A DNA stretch of 21,989 bases, from positions 1 through 21,989 of the IMG/VR virus record IMGVR_UViG_3300022200_008386; one strand, 5' to 3'. Position 1 is the first letter of the stretch, and every line of letters starts with the position of its first letter. The DNA is from a virus. A program made the translations under genes and the position numbers. A model generated the notes under the pieces. The model did not search any database. It was not told the origin of the DNA and worked only from the letters and a program-made list of their open reading frames with translations. This document shows positions 13,956-20,893 of the stretch, one piece after another.

Positions 13956-14471
13956 ATGAAGTTCGACCAAGCCATTAAAGAAGGGTTTGCAAATTACGTT
14001 TCAGAAGACGAAGATCAGATTTCTATTGGTAGAGATGTTTTAGAATCTATCAGAGATTTGATTAATGATGACGATGTAGTTAAAATTGCAGTAGAAAAAC
14101 ATAGAGATAACCCTAATCTGTTTAAAGCTATTAACAAATTAATTTTTAAAGTAGATAGTTTACTTGCTCCCAAGAAAGAAGAGTTTCCAGAAGATGAAAT
14201 GACTTTGGGTGACCCTACTCGTAAAAATAGTTCTGTATCTGGAGTTAAAAACTTAGGTAGTAGTTACAATTTAGATGACCATGTTGAGCAAGCTGCAGCA
14301 AAGGCTAATAAATTACAAAAATTTGGTGGATCATTTGGTGTAGGAGTCGGTGCTTATGGTGCAGCTAATGCTGCTGTAAAAAGAAGAGATAAAGTTGTAG
14401 GTCTTGCTGCTAAAAAATATGATGAAGTTACTAAAAATATTGAAAATGTATTGAAAAGACAAAAACCATAA
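13956..14471 (+). CDS. Putative internal head protein with capsid-targeting-like leader
   Basis: 171 residues of unknown family. The N-terminus MKFDQAIKEGFANYVSEDED is an amphipathic helix ending in V-S-E before Asp, a possible prohead-protease site. Residues 25-70 are a charged helical region. The middle is acidic (KKEEFPEDEMTLGDP). From about 125 a Gly/Ala-rich stretch FGGSFGVGVGAYGAANAA is followed by a basic helical tail ending KRQKP. The Gly/Ala segment plus cationic tail could interact with membranes or DNA, which is only a guess. It starts a chain of closely spaced plus-strand genes (6 nt to the next). Confidence 0.6.
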   Translation: MKFDQAIKEGFANYVSEDEDQISIGRDVLESIRDLINDDDVVKIAVEKHRDNPNLFKAINKLIFKVDSLLAPKKEEFPEDEMTLGDPTRKNSSVSGVKNLGSSYNLDDHVEQAAAKANKLQKFGGSFGVGVGAYGAANAAVKRRDKVVGLAAKKYDEVTKNIENVLKRQKP

Positions 14472-14477
14472 AAAATT

Positions 14478-14843
14478 ATGAAAATTAAAACTCACAGCAA
14501 ATTTTTTAGTTTAATTGGTAACAAGTATAAAATGCTTGAAGAACAGCCTGTTGATCCAACTGCTCAAATGTCTATGCCACCTGCTGCTCCTAATCCTGCA
14601 GCAGCCGCCCCTGCAGTACCAGCTGAACCTGCCCCAGAACCTGAAGTAAAGCAGTTAACACCTGAAGGTGAAGTTGAATTGATCAGACTTATTCGTAAGG
14701 CATTAGTTTTAGAACCAACTGAAGGTACTATTCCTCCTTCTATCTTAGATGATGAAATTAATGAAGAAAATGGTCGCGAAATATTGTCTAAACTTAAACA
14801 GTTTATAAATTCTTATTCAGACGACCCTGATATAGATTATTAA
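14478..14843 (+). CDS. Pro/Ala-rich small virion-module protein with leader-like N-terminus
   Basis: 121 residues. The N-terminus MKIKTHSKFFSLIGNKYKML followed by EEQP is basic-amphipathic and contains M-L-E, a possible cleavage site near residue 21. Residues 25-60 form a disordered linker of Pro and Ala (PAAAAPAVPAEPAPEPEV). The C-terminal domain begins LTPEGEVELIRLIRKAL and ends in an acidic tail DDPDIDY. The tripartite design (targeting leader, flexible Pro/Ala spacer, small helical domain) suggests a virion or scaffold component. I cannot name the family. Confidence 0.55.
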   Translation: MKIKTHSKFFSLIGNKYKMLEEQPVDPTAQMSMPPAAPNPAAAAPAVPAEPAPEPEVKQLTPEGEVELIRLIRKALVLEPTEGTIPPSILDDEINEENGREILSKLKQFINSYSDDPDIDY

Positions 14844-14844
14844 T

Positions 14845-16410
14845 ATGAGCAAATATAGATCATTAGCAGATATATACAGCGATAACGCTTTTAAACGTGT
14901 ACCTAAATTACAAAGACAAAAAGTGATTGGTGAGGACGTTAAAATATTTTTTCAGACAGAAATTGATGATGAACCTAAAATCGTAGGTTCACTTAACGAT
15001 GAACAAGCTTCGAAGTTAAGAAGAAAAATTATTAACCAATCTGGTGGTGTAGCTTCTCTGCTTAACGACTTATTAATTAAATCTCATTGGAAAGGTTCAA
15101 ATGAAAAAGAATATATATCTAAAGTTTTAGGCCCAGTAGTTGAAGCTGTAGAATCAAATACCGATGTTGATAAGAAAAATTTAGAACAATTTATAAAAGA
15201 TAAAAGAGAGTTAACATTTTTTATTGATACTCTCGATCAAGCTGCTGAATCTGAAACCGATTTCAACATATTTGAACAAATTGAACCTCTTTTACAAGAT
15301 ATATTTATTACAGATGCCCATGATACCGTTGTTGATATTTTCCTTATTAACCCTACGTTAAATAACATAGGTACGGGTAAGGGAGAAATATTAATTTCTA
15401 TGTTTACTAATGCAGTTAAAGGCGATGTGGGTGATTTATATTTTAACGGTTATGGTGATGTAGAAGTAAAAGGGTTAAAAGGTAGACCAGGTACATCTGG
15501 TAATGCATCAAGATCGATTGAATTATTACCTAAATTACTTTATAATAAAAAAGGTTCAGACGTTCATACAGGGGAAGGTATAAGAGATAAATTTCAACAA
15601 TCAGTAGGTGTTAGAAATGAACTTTATGATTACATTAATAATAAACTTTATAATGTAATGATCAAAAAAGGCGAAAAATATATTTCTTCTTATAATGAAA
15701 TAAAAAACATTATTGATACAGAATTAGATAAATTAGATGAAAATGAAAATATAACTAAAGAATTTCTAGAAAATTTAAAAGATAATTTACATGCCGAAAT
15801 TAACTCTTTAGTAACCTTTATAACACAAAGAACTACTCTTAAAAATAAGGTTACAAATTATATTAATTCATTAAAGGACTATTTAATAGCATCAACAAAT
15901 AGAATGGATTATGTACCTAAAGTAAAAAAACGAAAAAATAAAAAATCCGGTGAAATAGAAGAAACAGGTCCTACTACAACTGATGTATTTCAAAATTTCT
16001 TTCTAAACGAATGGGGGTTAAGTATAGATGATATAATAGAAGGATTTTTACTTGCAGCTAATGAAAATAAATTTAATAAAAAAGAATTTGAAGAGGGACT
16101 AAAAGAAATATTACTTTCCGATAATAATTTAAGAAAACTTCGCAGAAATAATGACGATATATTGTTACGCGCTATTATTGGTGCAATGCAAGTTTCAATG
16201 TATAAGGAAAAAGAAGGATTTAAAGTAATACTTTTTATAAATGATAATACAGGTAATGCTTTACCTTTTAAATCTAAAGGTGATACTGTAAAAGAACGAT
16301 TTATATATACTTTTAATAAATTTCAACAATTAATGAATAAAAATTTATTAAAAATTGGGTTAAACATTGATGATAGATCTAATGGCGTACCAATATCATA
16401 TATCGGTTAA
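14845..16410 (+). CDS. PD-(D/E)XK nuclease-like protein
   Basis: 521 residues. The segment from 178 reads GKGE, then GDVGDLYFNGYGDVEVKG (193-210): the Glu of GKGE (181), Asp of GDL (197) and E-V-K (207/209) match the E...D...ExK active site of the PD-(D/E)XK nucleases, in the form seen in several phage and restriction-type enzymes. GRPG after the motif resembles the GxGGR turn that often follows. The remainder is helical and charged, unlike anything I recognise. The N-terminus SLADIYSDNAF aligns by eye with SLQELYEATLS of the 175-aa minus-strand protein but lacks the Glu, so it may be a degenerate or uncleaved targeting leader. The ligase-like gene follows after 2 nt. Confidence 0.65.
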   Translation: MSKYRSLADIYSDNAFKRVPKLQRQKVIGEDVKIFFQTEIDDEPKIVGSLNDEQASKLRRKIINQSGGVASLLNDLLIKSHWKGSNEKEYISKVLGPVVEAVESNTDVDKKNLEQFIKDKRELTFFIDTLDQAAESETDFNIFEQIEPLLQDIFITDAHDTVVDIFLINPTLNNIGTGKGEILISMFTNAVKGDVGDLYFNGYGDVEVKGLKGRPGTSGNASRSIELLPKLLYNKKGSDVHTGEGIRDKFQQSVGVRNELYDYINNKLYNVMIKKGEKYISSYNEIKNIIDTELDKLDENENITKEFLENLKDNLHAEINSLVTFITQRTTLKNKVTNYINSLKDYLIASTNRMDYVPKVKKRKNKKSGEIEETGPTTTDVFQNFFLNEWGLSIDDIIEGFLLAANENKFNKKEFEEGLKEILLSDNNLRKLRRNNDDILLRAIIGAMQVSMYKEKEGFKVILFINDNTGNALPFKSKGDTVKERFIYTFNKFQQLMNKNLLKIGLNIDDRSNGVPISYIG

Positions 16411-16412
16411 TT

Positions 16413-17729
16413 ATGAAATTTGAACAAGAACTAATTTTTGAAGCATACAACAACGCTGTACTAAATGAAGGTGGCGCTGCTGGTCATATGTATCACCCTT
16501 TTGACTTACCTGAAGTTAACTCTATCGATGATTTAGTTAATGTATTATATAATAGCGTTGATATACTCAACAAAGGTACCGCTACAGTTAAACTGGATGG
16601 GGTTAATTTAAGTTTAAAAGTAGTTAATGATGAACGTAACGAAGCATTTAAAAAACAATTTGCTTTAGATAGAGGTTCTCAAAAAGTAGAAGATGTACAT
16701 GGTATTACATTAGATGGTTTAACAACTCGTTTTCCTGAAGGTCATGGATTAATTGATAAAGGTAAAACAATTCTTACAATTATGGATAAATCTATTCCAC
16801 TTATTAAAAATGATTTAATCAAATTAGGTATGTGGAATGATCCAACAAAATTTTTAAACACCGAATACATTGACGGTCAAGAAAATGTTATTGATTATGG
16901 TGATAAAAAAATAATAGCTTTTCATAGTGTTAATCAGTTTGTTGAAAAACGAAATAGAAAAGGTGAATTAACAAGACCCGGGTTAAAACCCAAACCTTAT
17001 GTTAAAGAGACATCAAGAGTTATTAATTATGATAACGAAGCTTTAAACAGTTTAAGAGAAAAAGTTAATACAATAGCTAATCAGTATGGGTTTGAGGTTA
17101 TTACCGGTATATATGTTACTAAAAAAGGTGTACCTAATTTTGATTCAGTTTTAAATAAACCATTTACAGTACAGTTTGATGATAAAGAAAAGGTAACCAA
17201 ACCTCTTAAAACTTGGATTAAAGAAGTTGGGAAAGGTATACCTAAAAAAATTAGAGTTAAAACTTTAGACGGAAAAGATAGAGGCGCTGTTAGTAAAGAT
17301 GTTTATCTTACTGTACTTAATGGTACACCTTTAGATAGTGTATTTAAAACAGAAGATATTAATACTGCAGTTGCAGGGGCTTTAACTTATCATATTACTA
17401 AGGAATTAGGTCAAGAAATTTTACGTAATTATACTACTGATAATTACGGTGATACCGATAAACACGAAGGTATAGTATTAACTGATACCTCATATGGTAA
17501 AGATAACTTAGGTAACCCTAATTCTATTAAAATTACAGGTGATTTTATTCTTAGTGGTATGGGTGGTAAATTAGCTACAAATAGACCTAAAGTGTCTGAT
17601 GAAGAAGATCAATCTGCACCAGCTGCTAACTACGGTAATGGTGGTATGGATTTTTCTTCTTATTTTACAAATCCAAGAAGTGAAACCGACCCCGGTGGAT
17701 CTGGATTTAAAGCCAAATCAGTTAAGTAA
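16413..17729 (+). CDS. Covalent nucleotidyltransferase (DNA/RNA ligase-like) with capsid-targeting-like leader
   Basis: 438 residues. The superfamily motifs occur in order: motif I TVKLDGVNLSLK with the AMP/GMP-accepting Lys at 60, NTEYIDG near 149-155 (motif III Glu 151), KIIAFHSV (IIIa) near 166, HEGIVLTD (motif IV, EGIV 352-355), and SIKITGDF with Lys 373 (motif V). An AGHMYHPFD segment (24-31) precedes motif I. No OB-fold or zinc finger is evident; the C-terminus is Gly/Ser-rich and basic. The N-terminus MKFEQELIFEAYN ends in I-F-E before Ala, a fully typical prohead-protease site, so the enzyme may be packaged. It follows the PD-(D/E)XK gene by 2 nt. Whether it seals DNA or RNA is unknown. 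Confidence 0.7.
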   Translation: MKFEQELIFEAYNNAVLNEGGAAGHMYHPFDLPEVNSIDDLVNVLYNSVDILNKGTATVKLDGVNLSLKVVNDERNEAFKKQFALDRGSQKVEDVHGITLDGLTTRFPEGHGLIDKGKTILTIMDKSIPLIKNDLIKLGMWNDPTKFLNTEYIDGQENVIDYGDKKIIAFHSVNQFVEKRNRKGELTRPGLKPKPYVKETSRVINYDNEALNSLREKVNTIANQYGFEVITGIYVTKKGVPNFDSVLNKPFTVQFDDKEKVTKPLKTWIKEVGKGIPKKIRVKTLDGKDRGAVSKDVYLTVLNGTPLDSVFKTEDINTAVAGALTYHITKELGQEILRNYTTDNYGDTDKHEGIVLTDTSYGKDNLGNPNSIKITGDFILSGMGGKLATNRPKVSDEEDQSAPAANYGNGGMDFSSYFTNPRSETDPGGSGFKAKSVK

Positions 17730-17733
17730 CTTT

Positions 17734-19029
17734 ATGTCCTTCTTAAAATATCACCAACGTTTAGGTGATTACATTCCTATACCAGATTGTACTATATTTA
17801 ATTACGATCTTATTTACTTCCTTAATGAAGATGGCCCTTTCTTATGGGAAAATAGTATGGGTGGTTATATATCACCTGATCTAGGAGGTAAAATAGTAGA
17901 GATAGATTGGGACTTACTTAAAAAAGATCTTTTAGAACAAAAACCTGGTATTTTAATTATACCAGAATGTTTGGTTAATAACTACCATAAACAATGTAAG
18001 TTAAAAATTGAAAATGATATCAGAGAATTAGGTTACTATGATGATCGTTTAATTGTTTATCTTCAGAAAGAGCAAAACTTTTATTACGGTGAAATTCACG
18101 ATAAACCAGATTGGTTCTACGTTGATGAATTAGATTATAAAAACATATGTTATCATTCTATTGGTTATAACACACCACCTAAAGAAGAAGATGAAACCCG
18201 ATTTAAAAACTTTAGATTTTGTAAACAAGGGTTTATGTGTGAATCTTTTTTTAAACTTTATAGTATTAAAGATACTTCACCAGACGAACTTTGGGAACAG
18301 AGACTTAAAACAAATTTTGATCCCGGTAAATTAATATGGTACGGTAATTTATATACAAGTATTAGAAATAATATAACTGGAGCTATAAAAGATAGTACTA
18401 AAGTACATTATAAAGATGTGGTTTATGGTAATGAAAGTTTAACTGATTTAGTACTTGGTGAAAAAGGTATCGGTATATCAATGGACGGTTTAGTATTTAA
18501 CACTATTAGAGATGCTGAATTCGGTGTTGTTGGTTTACCAAGTATTAAAGTAACAAGGGCTGATAATTATCTGATTGAACATAACAATGTTGATATGTTT
18601 GGTTGTAGGCAAATTATACAAGTACAAGATAACATTTTTACTAATGCGAATAATGAATTAATCAAAAAACAAGTTGAAGAAGGGTATGAAAGATATTTTG
18701 AATTAGATCATAATGATTATGATAAGACAATGAAAAATATAAGATATCATTTCTTCATTATTTTACTTCAAAAATTTAATAATATTGAATTTTTTGTTTT
18801 TGATATTTTGTTTGGGGATAAAATAAAGGATTTTGTTGATAATTTAGATATAAAAGTGGATTATAGTATATTTGAAAAAGCATGTAACGTAGATCCTTCA
18901 ACATATAATAAAGGAGATGTTTGTTTGTTACCTTATATGGAAAATCTATTGACTAAATTTAGAGAGTATTTTAAACTATGTTATATAGATTGGTATAAAA
19001 CATTAAATAATAAAAATGACAGCATTTAA
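17734..19029 (+). CDS. Putative GT-B-like glycosyltransferase (low certainty)
   Basis: 431 residues from the ATG at 17734; an earlier ATG at 17599 lies inside the ligase-like gene and is not the start. The most informative segment, KGIGISMDGLVFNTIRDAEF followed by GVVGLPSIKV, resembles the donor-binding C-terminal half of GT-B enzymes (Gly-rich loop, then an acidic helix, then Gly-Val-Pro strand). KLIWYGNLYTSIRNNI upstream resembles the first strand and loop of that domain. The N-terminal 250 residues are unfamiliar and aromatic. No leader resembling a capsid-targeting sequence is seen. It ends inside the next gene by a 14-bp overlap. If real, it is a sugar enzyme inside the virion module. 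Confidence 0.5.
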   Translation: MSFLKYHQRLGDYIPIPDCTIFNYDLIYFLNEDGPFLWENSMGGYISPDLGGKIVEIDWDLLKKDLLEQKPGILIIPECLVNNYHKQCKLKIENDIRELGYYDDRLIVYLQKEQNFYYGEIHDKPDWFYVDELDYKNICYHSIGYNTPPKEEDETRFKNFRFCKQGFMCESFFKLYSIKDTSPDELWEQRLKTNFDPGKLIWYGNLYTSIRNNITGAIKDSTKVHYKDVVYGNESLTDLVLGEKGIGISMDGLVFNTIRDAEFGVVGLPSIKVTRADNYLIEHNNVDMFGCRQIIQVQDNIFTNANNELIKKQVEEGYERYFELDHNDYDKTMKNIRYHFFIILLQKFNNIEFFVFDILFGDKIKDFVDNLDIKVDYSIFEKACNVDPSTYNKGDVCLLPYMENLLTKFREYFKLCYIDWYKTLNNKNDSI

Positions 19030-19627
19030 GTGGTTTTTCATCAAAGAGCAAACTGGTAGAAAGATAGTTCTTTTTCCTGGTTCATTTAAACCACCTCACC
19101 TAGGTCATTTTAAGTTAATTGAAAGCTTTAAAAACAAAGTTGGTCAAGATGGTATTGTAAATGTTATCGTAACCGATCCTTCACCCAAATCAAGAAGATA
19201 TACCCCAGGTGGTAAATATGTACCCGCAGAAGTAGCAGCTGATATTTTAAGACGTTATGTTGCTGAAATGGGGTTAAGAGGTGTTAATGTAACTACAGCT
19301 AAAAATGCAGTAGGTGAAGTTTATGACTTTGTGAGAGAGGATGCTTTACCAGGAGATCAAATTATAGTTGGTGTAGGTGGTAAAGGAAATGATAAAGCTA
19401 GATATTCAGGTATATTAAAAGGTTTACCCGCTGGTGTAACGGTTAATATAGATGTTGCCGATGTAGTTGGTGATGAATCTGGTGCATTTAGTGCTAGTAA
19501 CTTCAGAGACTTGTTAGATAACCTTTCGATCGAAAATTTGTTACCATATATACCAGAAAACCTACGAAACAATGAAAGCCTCGTAGGTTATGTATTTGAT
19601 AAATTAAGTAACTTACCTTCTGATTAG
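19016..19627 (+). CDS. HxGH-type nucleotidyltransferase with capsid-targeting-like leader
   Basis: 203 residues. LFPGSFKPPHLGHFKLIE contains the HxGH motif (28-31) of the cytidylyltransferase/adenylyltransferase superfamily (NadD, NadM/NadR, CoaD). FSASNFRDLL (158-167) matches the ISSTxxR-type motif at the C-terminal end of the active site, and QIIVGVGGKGN is the middle strand. The substrate (NMN, phosphopantetheine, glycerol-3-phosphate or others) cannot be told. The N-terminus MTAFKWFFIKEQTG adds 11 residues before the fold, ending in I-K-E, a good match to a cleaved head-targeting leader. Enzyme families of this type appear in T4-like marine phages. The stop overlaps the convergent gene by 4 bp. 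Confidence 0.75.
   Translation: MTAFKWFFIKEQTGRKIVLFPGSFKPPHLGHFKLIESFKNKVGQDGIVNVIVTDPSPKSRRYTPGGKYVPAEVAADILRRYVAEMGLRGVNVTTAKNAVGEVYDFVREDALPGDQIIVGVGGKGNDKARYSGILKGLPAGVTVNIDVADVVGDESGAFSASNFRDLLDNLSIENLLPYIPENLRNNESLVGYVFDKLSNLPSD
19559..19589 (-). terminator. Hairpin downstream of the minus-strand 175-aa gene (possible terminator)
   Basis: AACCTACGA (19559-19567) and TCGTAGGTT (19581-19589) are perfect inverted repeats of 9 bp with a 13-nt loop. On the minus strand the stem starts 34 nt after the stop codon and is followed by a run ending in TTTT, then CTGG. It lies inside the 3' end of the plus-strand nucleotidyltransferase gene. The short U run makes a weak intrinsic terminator plausible. 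Confidence 0.45.
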
Positions 19628-20151
19628 AAACGACTCATCAACATTTTAATAACTTCGTCGTTTACACCCTTTTTCTCTTCATCACCCATTTCACCTGGTG
19701 GTTGTTCATCAATATCGACTTCAACTGCTGCAGGGCCACCACAACCACCCATAGGAGCAGGAGGTACTTCATCAACTTCATGACTATGTACTTTAGCTTC
19801 TTCTTCGTACTTAAGATAATGGTAGATATCAGAAACATAATCACTTGCTTTGGTAAGTTTAGCTTGAACCCAACCTTCTAACTCATCATAATTTTTAATT
19901 AAGTCAAGTAATTTAGGAGCATATTCAGCTAATTTGTAAAGCTCTGATTTAGCCATATCAACCTCGTGATCGTCAATCTGTTCCCTTTCTTCATCTTCAG
20001 GTGTTTCAACATCTTGAACATCTATTTTGGTCATAGTAGGGCTTCCTAATCCACCTGCTGAATCTTCAGCTTGAGGACCTAACCCTACACCGTTAAGAGG
20101 TGAAAGTGTAGCTTCATAGAGTTCTTGTAAACTCTTTTCGTCTTTATTCAT
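19624..20151 (-). CDS. Acidic virion-associated protein with capsid-targeting-like leader
   Basis: 175 residues from the ATG at 20151; a longer frame from 20256 would run through the promoter and the divergent gene and is rejected. MNKDEKSLQELYEATLS ends in L-Y-E before Ala, a typical prohead-protease site. The body is acidic and low-complexity except for one conserved-looking helical block, AEYAPKLLDLIKNYDELEGW followed by VQAKLTKASDYVSDIYHYL. Blocks of this kind recur in small proteins of T4-like marine phages, from memory and unconfirmed. The C-terminus is Pro/Gly/Glu-rich (GGCGGPAAVEVD). The only minus-strand gene in the late module, it is divergent from 20174 and shares an overlapping late promoter. 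Confidence 0.65.
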   Translation of the reverse strand: MNKDEKSLQELYEATLSPLNGVGLGPQAEDSAGGLGSPTMTKIDVQDVETPEDEEREQIDDHEVDMAKSELYKLAEYAPKLLDLIKNYDELEGWVQAKLTKASDYVSDIYHYLKYEEEAKVHSHEVDEVPPAPMGGCGGPAAVEVDIDEQPPGEMGDEEKKGVNDEVIKMLMSRF

Positions 20152-20173: not shown

Positions 20174-20476
20174 ATGGATTTTGATGCATTGTGTGATTTT
20201 CTTACCGAAGACTTTGAATTGGTTAAGATTATGGAGAAAAAAGGTAGCCGTTGCACTAAAGCTACTAAACAAGCTAGCTCTTACCTTAAGAGTAAGAAAT
20301 ATATGAAGTGTGTAAAGAACCCTTCCGGTAAGGGATACAAAAGGGTCCATTACGGAGACCCTAAACGTCGCATTAAAAAGAGTAATCCTAAAAGACGTAA
20401 GAGTTTTAGAGCAAGGCACAAGTGTTCTTCAGCTAAACCTGGAACAGCAAGATATTTAAGTTGTAAGAATTGGTAA
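20174..20476 (+). CDS. Small basic Cys-containing protein with capsid-targeting-like leader
   Basis: 100 residues. MDFDALCDFLTEDFE ends in L-T-E before Asp, a good prohead-protease site. The mature part is very basic (KRVHYGDPKRRIKKSNPKRR, then KSFRARHKC) with Cys in GSRCTK, MKCVKN, RHKCSS and LSCKNW, possibly a zinc-binding or disulphide core. From memory, the block SNPKRRKSFRARHKC...YLSCKNW recurs in many phage proteins of unknown function; I cannot verify this here. First of three tandem small genes, all basic and all with leaders. Packaged DNA-binding protein is the best guess. Confidence 0.7.
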   Translation: MDFDALCDFLTEDFELVKIMEKKGSRCTKATKQASSYLKSKKYMKCVKNPSGKGYKRVHYGDPKRRIKKSNPKRRKSFRARHKCSSAKPGTARYLSCKNW

Positions 20477-20477
20477 A

Positions 20478-20639
20478 ATGAATAACTTTAATAAAAAAAT
20501 AGACGAATTACTCAATTTACTATCAGAAGATCGTTGTAAATCACGTGCTGATAAAGTATACGGTAAGAAAACATCCGCATATAAGTCAGGTGCTATAGTA
20601 AGATGCCGAAAAGGTAAAATTTGGAAGAAAAAGAAATGA
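20478..20639 (+). CDS. 53-aa basic protein with capsid-targeting-like leader
   Basis: Complete short gene: ATG at 20478, TGA at 20637-20639. MNNFNKKIDELLNLLSEDRC ends in L-S-E before Asp (cleavage would follow residue 18), leaving a mature peptide of only about 35 residues. The mature part has YGKKTSAYKSGAIVRCRKGK and ends IWKKKK, with two Cys (20 and 43). A 'SAYxSGAxVxCRK' segment is common in small phage proteins, from memory. It starts one base after the previous stop, and its stop overlaps the next ATG (ATGA). Confidence 0.7.
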   Translation: MNNFNKKIDELLNLLSEDRCKSRADKVYGKKTSAYKSGAIVRCRKGKIWKKKK

Positions 20640-20893
20640 CTTTTAAACAGTTTTACGAAGCATCAGATAATTTACATCAATGGTTTAAAAGAGGTGGTAA
20701 AGACCCTAAGACCGGTAAGAAATTCTCTGGTTGGGTAAATTGTAAAACTGGTGGTCCTTGTGGCCGTAAATCTAAAAAGTCAGGTGGTAGTTACCCTGCA
20801 TGTAGACCCACTAAAAGTGCATGCAAAAGTATTAAAGGTAAAATGTATCAAAAGAAAAGCTCTAAAAGAGTTAACTGGAAGAAAAAGAAATAG
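20636..20893 (+). CDS. 85-aa basic Cys/Gly-rich protein with capsid-targeting-like leader
   Basis: Start at 20636 (ATGA overlap); an in-frame ATG at 20621 would run through the preceding tail and is less likely. A purine-rich GGAAG lies 8 nt before this ATG, the only decent Shine-Dalgarno-like site in the late block. MTFKQFYEASDN ends in F-Y-E before Ala. The mature part begins LHQWFKRGGKDPKTGKKFSG and continues WVNCKTGGPCGRKSKKSGGS, then YPACRPTKSACKS, with four Cys (CxxxxxC and CxxxxxxC), a likely metal site, and ends VNWKKKK, nearly the same tail as the previous protein. Function unknown; packaged nucleic-acid binding is the best guess. Confidence 0.7.
   Translation: MTFKQFYEASDNLHQWFKRGGKDPKTGKKFSGWVNCKTGGPCGRKSKKSGGSYPACRPTKSACKSIKGKMYQKKSSKRVNWKKKK

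Follow-up and report, generated by a model that had tools for sequence, protein, structure and literature searches.

A candidate RNA-ligase-like enzyme family predicted as internal capsid cargo of T4-like phages

Two questions are raised by the locus described here: what the 438-amino-acid product of one open reading frame (ORF) might catalyze, and whether it would travel inside the phage head. The window (the whole stretch of DNA analyzed, a 21,989-base virus record) comes from an uncultured ocean virus of bacteria. Genes that we take, from reading the ORFs, to be T4-like replication genes (gp46, gp47, gp55, UvsW, and UvsY types) are present, and the replication genes lie mainly on the minus strand, as far as ~12.7 kb; from ~13.4 to 20.9 kb extends a mainly plus-strand block whose proteins are largely without known function. 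The ligase-like ORF within this block is uninterrupted, and its position and strand (16413 to 17729, plus) were confirmed. Our main reading, to which we give a probability of about 60%, is that T4-like phages carry, as cargo within the capsid, covalent nucleotidyltransferases of a new RNA-ligase-like family, and that the product of this ORF is one of them. Its neighbors, as read from the sequence, are as follows (a slash within a motif marks a possible cleavage site).

13956..14471, plus: 171-amino-acid cargo-block protein, possible leader MKFDQAIKE/G
14478..14843, plus: 121-amino-acid cargo-block protein, possible site MLEE/Q
14845..16410, plus: 521-amino-acid protein, GE...GD...EVKG pattern resembling PD-(D/E)xK nucleases
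17734..19029, plus: 431-amino-acid cargo-block protein, no recognized leader
19016..19627, plus: NMNAT/cytidylyltransferase-like protein (PF01467), possible leader MTAFKWFFIKE/Q; ligase partner, fused in relatives
19624..20151, minus: cargo-like protein if the start is at MNKDEKSLQELYE/A
20174..20476, plus: 100-amino-acid Lys/Arg-rich protein, possible leader MDFDALCDFLTE/D
20621..20893, plus: 90-amino-acid Lys/Gly-rich protein, possible leader MEEKEMTFKQFYE/A

The pattern of the 521-amino-acid neighbor (GKGE...GD...EVKG) is conserved, occurring also at L004:6463-8004, and the protein is possibly a co-packaged nuclease. The small Lys-rich proteins at 20174 to 20476 (LTE/D) and 20621 to 20893 (FYE/A) are possible DNA-binding capsid proteins. 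No polynucleotide kinase was recognized beside the ligase-like gene; a tRNA gene stood beside the ligase at one of six loci, which is not informative.

The ligase-like protein had no match in Pfam (hence also none to PF19782 [DUF6267]), in NCBIfam, or in the PDB with phmmer; the sole match of a PDB profile search, SUMO, was dismissed as chance. A PHROG “RNA ligase” profile matched it at an E value of only 0.007, across motifs IV to V. Single-protein scans of viral sequences returned close relatives only, and a profile scan was needed to reveal the family, which has at least 494 relatives in IMG/VR. Isolates found among these relatives were limited to Microcystis phage Mel-JY01, alongside two huge-phage metagenome assemblies, and GTDB genomes yielded no relatives. 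PHROG and Pfam RNA-ligase matches of family members were weak one by one; PHROG 562 (Rnl1) matched 3 of 38 members, each weakly (best E value, 0.033). This large enzyme family seems to have been recognized by nobody before.

Thirty-eight members, with 17 to 46% identity to the window protein, were aligned. H25, H28, P29, F30, K60, D62, G63, N158, Y162, G346, E352, G353, K373, T375, G376, and F378 were invariant (38/38), and N149, E151, and H171 were kept in 37 members. Motifs invariant across these relatives are not chance occurrences. The preliminary description of this DNA had recognized motifs I, III, IIIa, IV, and V of covalent nucleotidyltransferases in the protein, and all five are conserved in the 38 relatives. 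Features along the gene (all plus strand) are given below with their basis.

16413..17729, plus: RNA-ligase-like covalent nucleotidyltransferase, predicted capsid cargo, 438 amino acids (motifs, model, structural matches)
16413..16469, plus: putative capsid-targeting leader, residues 1 to 19, MKFEQELIFEAYNNAVLNE (boundary motif, low pLDDT)
16469/16470, plus: conserved site LNE19/GG20, with a secondary site, LIFE10/A11, at 16442/16443 (family comparison)
16485..16505, plus: invariant N-terminal element H25MYH28P29F30D31, HxxHPF[DE] (alignment)
16590..16601, plus: motif I, K60LDG (AAACTGGATGGG), predicted adenylation site (alignment; hhalign on T4 Rnl2 motif I, KIHG)
16857..16898, plus: motif III, N149xE151 to Y162 (aligns with T4 Rnl1 ANFEFVAPTNRIVLAY)
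16911..16925, plus: motif IIIa, IIAFH171, residues ~167 to 171 (alignment)
16929..17462, plus: mixed helix-strand insert between motifs IIIa and IV, ~180 amino acids (model, alignment)
17466..17477, plus: motif IV, E352GIV (alignment)
17529..17546, plus: motif V, K373ITGDF (alignment)
17559..17726, plus: C-terminal tail, disorder predicted, with nothing folded past motif V (model)

HxxHPF[DE] sits ~30 residues ahead of motif I, the spacing between motifs IIIa and IV varies from 180 to 235 amino acids across the family, and members within polyproteins extend just ~15 to 20 residues beyond motif V.

An AlphaFold2 model built with 35 sequences had a pLDDT of >90 across most of residues 23 to 382 and low values in the leader (residues 9 to 22) and tail (residues 383 to 438). 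The best Foldseek matches in the PDB were T4 Rnl2 (E value, 1.1e-3; probability, 0.96) and also Trypanosoma REL1 (TbREL1). After realignment with VIA, whose ranking covers only families present in the VIA list, the top 50 rows were RNA or DNA ligases without exception, led by T4 Rnl1 (Z score, 7.6 over 183 residues) and Naegleria RNA ligase, with every Z score below 8. At weak scores, hhalign paired TVKLDGVNLSLKVV with T4 Rnl2 REKIHGTNFSLIIE and FLNTEYIDGQENVIDYG with T4 Rnl1 TANFEFVAPTNRIVLAY. The single Z scores being middling, the ligase fold is proposed because the match list is uniform and the motifs fit. Judged from the model, the window protein almost certainly has a covalent nucleotidyltransferase fold, and it is probably a ligase, not another kind of transferase; the fold ranking and the absent OB domain tip the balance slightly toward RNA, not DNA, as the substrate. 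Structure prediction thus returned the nucleotidyltransferase fold, with ligases as top matches, that the ligase-like assignment of the preliminary description implied, and comparison with T4 Rnl1, T4 Rnl2, and DNA ligases found a shared core, T4 Rnl2 ranking best with Foldseek and T4 Rnl1 with VIA.

DNA ligases do stand in that match list, DNA lies in the same particle, and a neighboring gene is nuclease-like, all of which would suit a packaged DNA repair ligase that mends incoming phage DNA where it is nicked or has been broken by the host, perhaps jointly with the PD-(D/E)xK-like neighbor. The best matches are nevertheless RNA ligases, and the absence of a fold after motif V means that neither an OB domain (nor motif VI) nor an Rnl-type C-terminal domain follows it; we consider repair of DNA an unlikely role.

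Motif V itself is unusual, in that Thr (T375) replaces the second Lys of KxK in 38/38 members, leaving the family without the KxK pattern. That pattern is typical of ATP-dependent ligases and not universal in the superfamily, and the second Lys is essential in characterized ligases, so the chemistry may differ here. A single motif V Lys is also found in DUF6267 (PF19782), a domain present in hundreds of cyanophage genomes and often encoded beside, or fused to, the cyanophage NMNAT-like gene. For a DUF6267 structure predicted from 21 sequences, the top 50 VIA matches were all ligases, with Naegleria RNA ligase first (Z score, 8.9), and plain Foldseek E values were weak; K48WDG, E361GxV, and K373 are invariant. 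Besides the single Lys, DUF6267 has in common with the window family a KWDG-type motif I, an EG[FY]V motif IV, the predicted ligase fold, an HxxHxxD N terminus, and an NMNAT partner. The two differ in that they have no significant overall sequence similarity, and the DUF6267 member inspected has no leader; in hhalign, the alignment between the families was confined to motifs I to III and had a low probability. Fold and motifs suggest a common ancestry, which sequence comparison does not demonstrate. DUF6267 loci include L096:2371-3546 and L092:3025-4801 (S-PM2 p141 and p142), the latter pair apparently being a single gene that a frameshift in the record divides in two.

The window family is likewise coupled to NMNAT. 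Ligase (16413 to 17729) and NMNAT-like protein (19016 to 19627) are two genes in the window; they are fused as ligase-NMNAT in L005 and in the reverse order, NMNAT-ligase, in Mel-JY01. Polyproteins run NMNAT-(zincin, other modules)-ligase, L007 has ParB-NMNAT-ligase, and HExxH zincins lie within several polyproteins or in the gene immediately upstream. The L007 protein (L007:7590-10334) is a huge-phage chain uniting ParB-like, NMNAT, and ligase-like domains. At L078:1309-6045 and in L037, L059, L047, L055, and L046, polyproteins of up to 1,974 amino acids place ahead of the ligase domain an NMNAT, an HExxH zincin, a conserved “VDKGDxVLMGKFKNKK” module, and zinc-ribbon-like segments, with sites of the types ESVNE/A, ESVNE/G, and LLxE/GG between modules; a RegB-like match in L078 was weak (E value, 0.004, below the cutoff).

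Such repeated coupling to NMNAT, the missing second motif V Lys in both the window family and DUF6267, and the unusual invariant HxxHPF[DE] would also fit a covalent nucleotidyltransferase other than a ligase that, with its NMNAT-like partner, places AMP or another nucleotide onto a protein, a small molecule, or the 5′ ends of RNA. We find this improbable, however, as the fold and the motif III pattern are nearest those of RNA ligases and our searches brought up no known capping or protein-AMPylating family that lay closer.

Evidence on packaging begins at the N terminus. The pattern [LIVM]xE/GG stands right before the ligase domain in 48/48 nonredundant relatives with longer ORFs (up to 1,974 amino acids, some cut by contig ends), against a background for a looser pattern in those proteins of 0.45% per position. 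The ligase domain is the C-terminal module in most of the 48 and is followed by NMNAT in a few. Five entries whose upstream part is short (one of them cut by the contig start) have [LIVM]xE/G, and 11 further members start within a few residues of that glycine (10 as M-GG, also M-GT). Such sites are enriched upstream in the polyproteins (119 versus 74 ± 8.6 in shuffles), and the low-confidence leader in the model stops at about residue 22. The idea that a frameshift links the M-GG forms to genes upstream was rejected, the upstream ORFs mostly stopping beside an ATG and lacking the site. The preliminary description had proposed a leader ending at LIFE/A; LIFE10/A11 is indeed present, but the family-wide site is E19/G20, and LIFE10/A11 was dropped as the main cleavage site because the P1′ residue of L004, the nearest distinct relative, is Lys.

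An S77 (T4 gp21-type) prohead protease was found in 7/11 relatives' records versus 0/14 control genomes; no protease gene was seen in the 22-kb window fragment. Internal proteins of T4 have a capsid-targeting leader of ~10 amino acids, and gp21 cuts off small N-terminal peptides; the leader of the window protein ends, as in T4-type cargo, in hydrophobic-x-Glu. In a small, post hoc comparison across window genes, leader-like sites within the first 25 residues numbered 0 among the replication-side genes and 6 to 7 among the cargo-block proteins (IKE/G, IFE/A plus LNE/G, IKE/Q, LYE/A at an inner start, LTE/D, FYE/A, and LEE/Q at residue 22).

If instead the protein were made late and acted in the cell or in assembly without being packaged, the N-terminal Glu motif would be a feature of the domain and not a cleavage site. 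The fold relative DUF6267 begins at HxxHxxD without a leader, and 11 family members begin beside GG, as might then be expected. We regard this as quite unlikely, however, given that a hydrophobic P3, a variable P2, a fixed Glu at P1 (48/48), and a start Met in the others form the pattern of a protease site and that several neighboring genes have similar leaders.

Mass spectrometry has identified NMNAT-like proteins in S-SCSM1 and S-CREM2 virions, such proteins have also been reported for S-CBWM1 and S-SZBM1, and the authors of the cyanophage virion proteomics warn of co-purification (PMC9602691, PMC10665884). In S-SCSM1 and S-CREM2, these proteins begin MKSFLQFLKE/A and MKNFSSFLTE/A, respectively, a leader of the same type as in the window. 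The S-SCSM1 virion block (ORFs 89 to 93) contains the NMNAT and no recognizable ligase, and the phage encodes DUF6267 outside this block. These ORFs (L097:31358-36833) encode virion proteins around the NMNAT, of which ORF90, read from its sequence, may be nuclease-like. The virion NMNAT-like proteins support packaging of the cargo set and bear indirectly on the ligase itself. Because of the leader, polyprotein, and protease evidence, and indirectly the virion mass spectrometry, we consider it likely that the window protein is packaged in the capsid; the travel inside the head predicted in the preliminary description is well supported by the leader, the polyproteins, and the S77 protease of relatives, the NMNAT virion data again being indirect.

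Within our main reading, of a packaged RNA-ligase-like enzyme, we infer the following steps of cleavage, injection, adenylylation, ligation on an RNA substrate, and action before phage expression. The N-terminal leader would steer the precursor into the prohead core, where a gp21-type (S77) prohead protease would cut at LNE19/GG20, and the mature enzyme would exit the head together with the DNA. After entry, the enzyme would be adenylylated on K60, AMP would be handed to a 5′-phosphate end, and the end would be sealed; the likeliest targets would be tRNAs or other RNAs cleaved by host defense nucleases, ahead of phage gene expression. During that same early period, NAD+ would be produced by the NMNAT-like enzyme packaged alongside, and the NMNAT link suggests NAD supply. 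It is conceivable, if doubtful, that the ligase is itself fueled by NAD+, taking AMP from it and releasing NMN, from which, with ATP, NMNAT would rebuild NAD+; the virion would then deliver a repair module able to sustain itself. This idea comes from the NMNAT coupling, seen with fusions in either order and in two ligase-like families that are divergent, and from the single motif V Lys and the invariant N-terminal HxxHxx[DE] in both families; NAD+-dependent DNA ligases have a single motif V Lys. A structural pseudo-enzyme or assembly catalyst, like T4 Rnl1 in its tail fiber attachment role (T4 rnlA is annotated as RNA ligase and tail fiber attachment catalyst), is very unlikely, since catalytic residues invariant in 38 divergent members are hardly expected of a purely structural role.

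Phage RNA ligases and NAD enzymes have been surveyed (PMC7824862, PMC9503650). In the open-access literature, outside which most subscription journals lie, our searches returned no publication about DUF6267, about a comparable virion ligase, or about enzyme polyproteins processed by prohead protease, nor any virion proteomics covering this phage or a member of the ligase family. If our main reading is true, a widespread group of aquatic phages injects a repair ligase that is ready to act, together with a partner that makes NAD, giving counter-defense from time zero and not after early transcription. It would give a large family without annotation, as well as DUF6267, an activity that can be tested, offer a possible reason for the recurrent NMNAT-like proteins in cyanophage virions, and describe a cargo format that could be mined for more injected effectors: the enzyme polyprotein whose modules are separated by prohead-protease-like sites.

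Among known enzymes, T4 Rnl1 (gp63) has in common with the window protein the nucleotidyltransferase core aligned by VIA, the motif III pattern NxE[FY][IV]...N/R-[IV]-V..Y, and motif IV (EG[YI]V). It differs in having an all-helical C-terminal domain past motif V, where the window family has no folded domain, and in motif V (KIK, versus K[IL]T in the window family); the window family also has the ~180-amino-acid insert between motifs IIIa and IV, and the window protein is a predicted virion cargo with no significant sequence or profile match to Rnl1. T4 Rnl2 (gp24.1), the top Foldseek match, has a similar motif I (KIHGTNFSL, versus KLDGVNLSL here), whereas the window family is without the second motif V Lys and the C-terminal domain and has a different N-terminal element. 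DNA ligases and capping enzymes have a C-terminal OB domain and motif VI, unlike the window protein, which has no folded domain after motif V. Because of T375, the long insert, the lack of a fold after motif V, and the invariant HxxHPF[DE], the proteins are better regarded as a family of their own, built on a ligase core, than as members of Rnl1, Rnl2, or the DNA ligases. With T4 IPII, IPIII, and Alt the window protein has in common a short N-terminal leader (removed by gp21 in T4), and relatives have a T4-type protease; here, in contrast, the cargo is ligase-like and is often the final module of a polyprotein with several such sites. Multidomain injected proteins have already been described as the polyvalent proteins of phages and conjugative elements, which are likewise multidomain, probably injected, and equipped with zincin and other effector domains (Iyer et al. 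2017, PMC5512222). No ligase or NMNAT module is described in the passages of that survey consulted here, and the modules of the window family differ from polyvalent proteins in being parted by prohead-protease-like sites.
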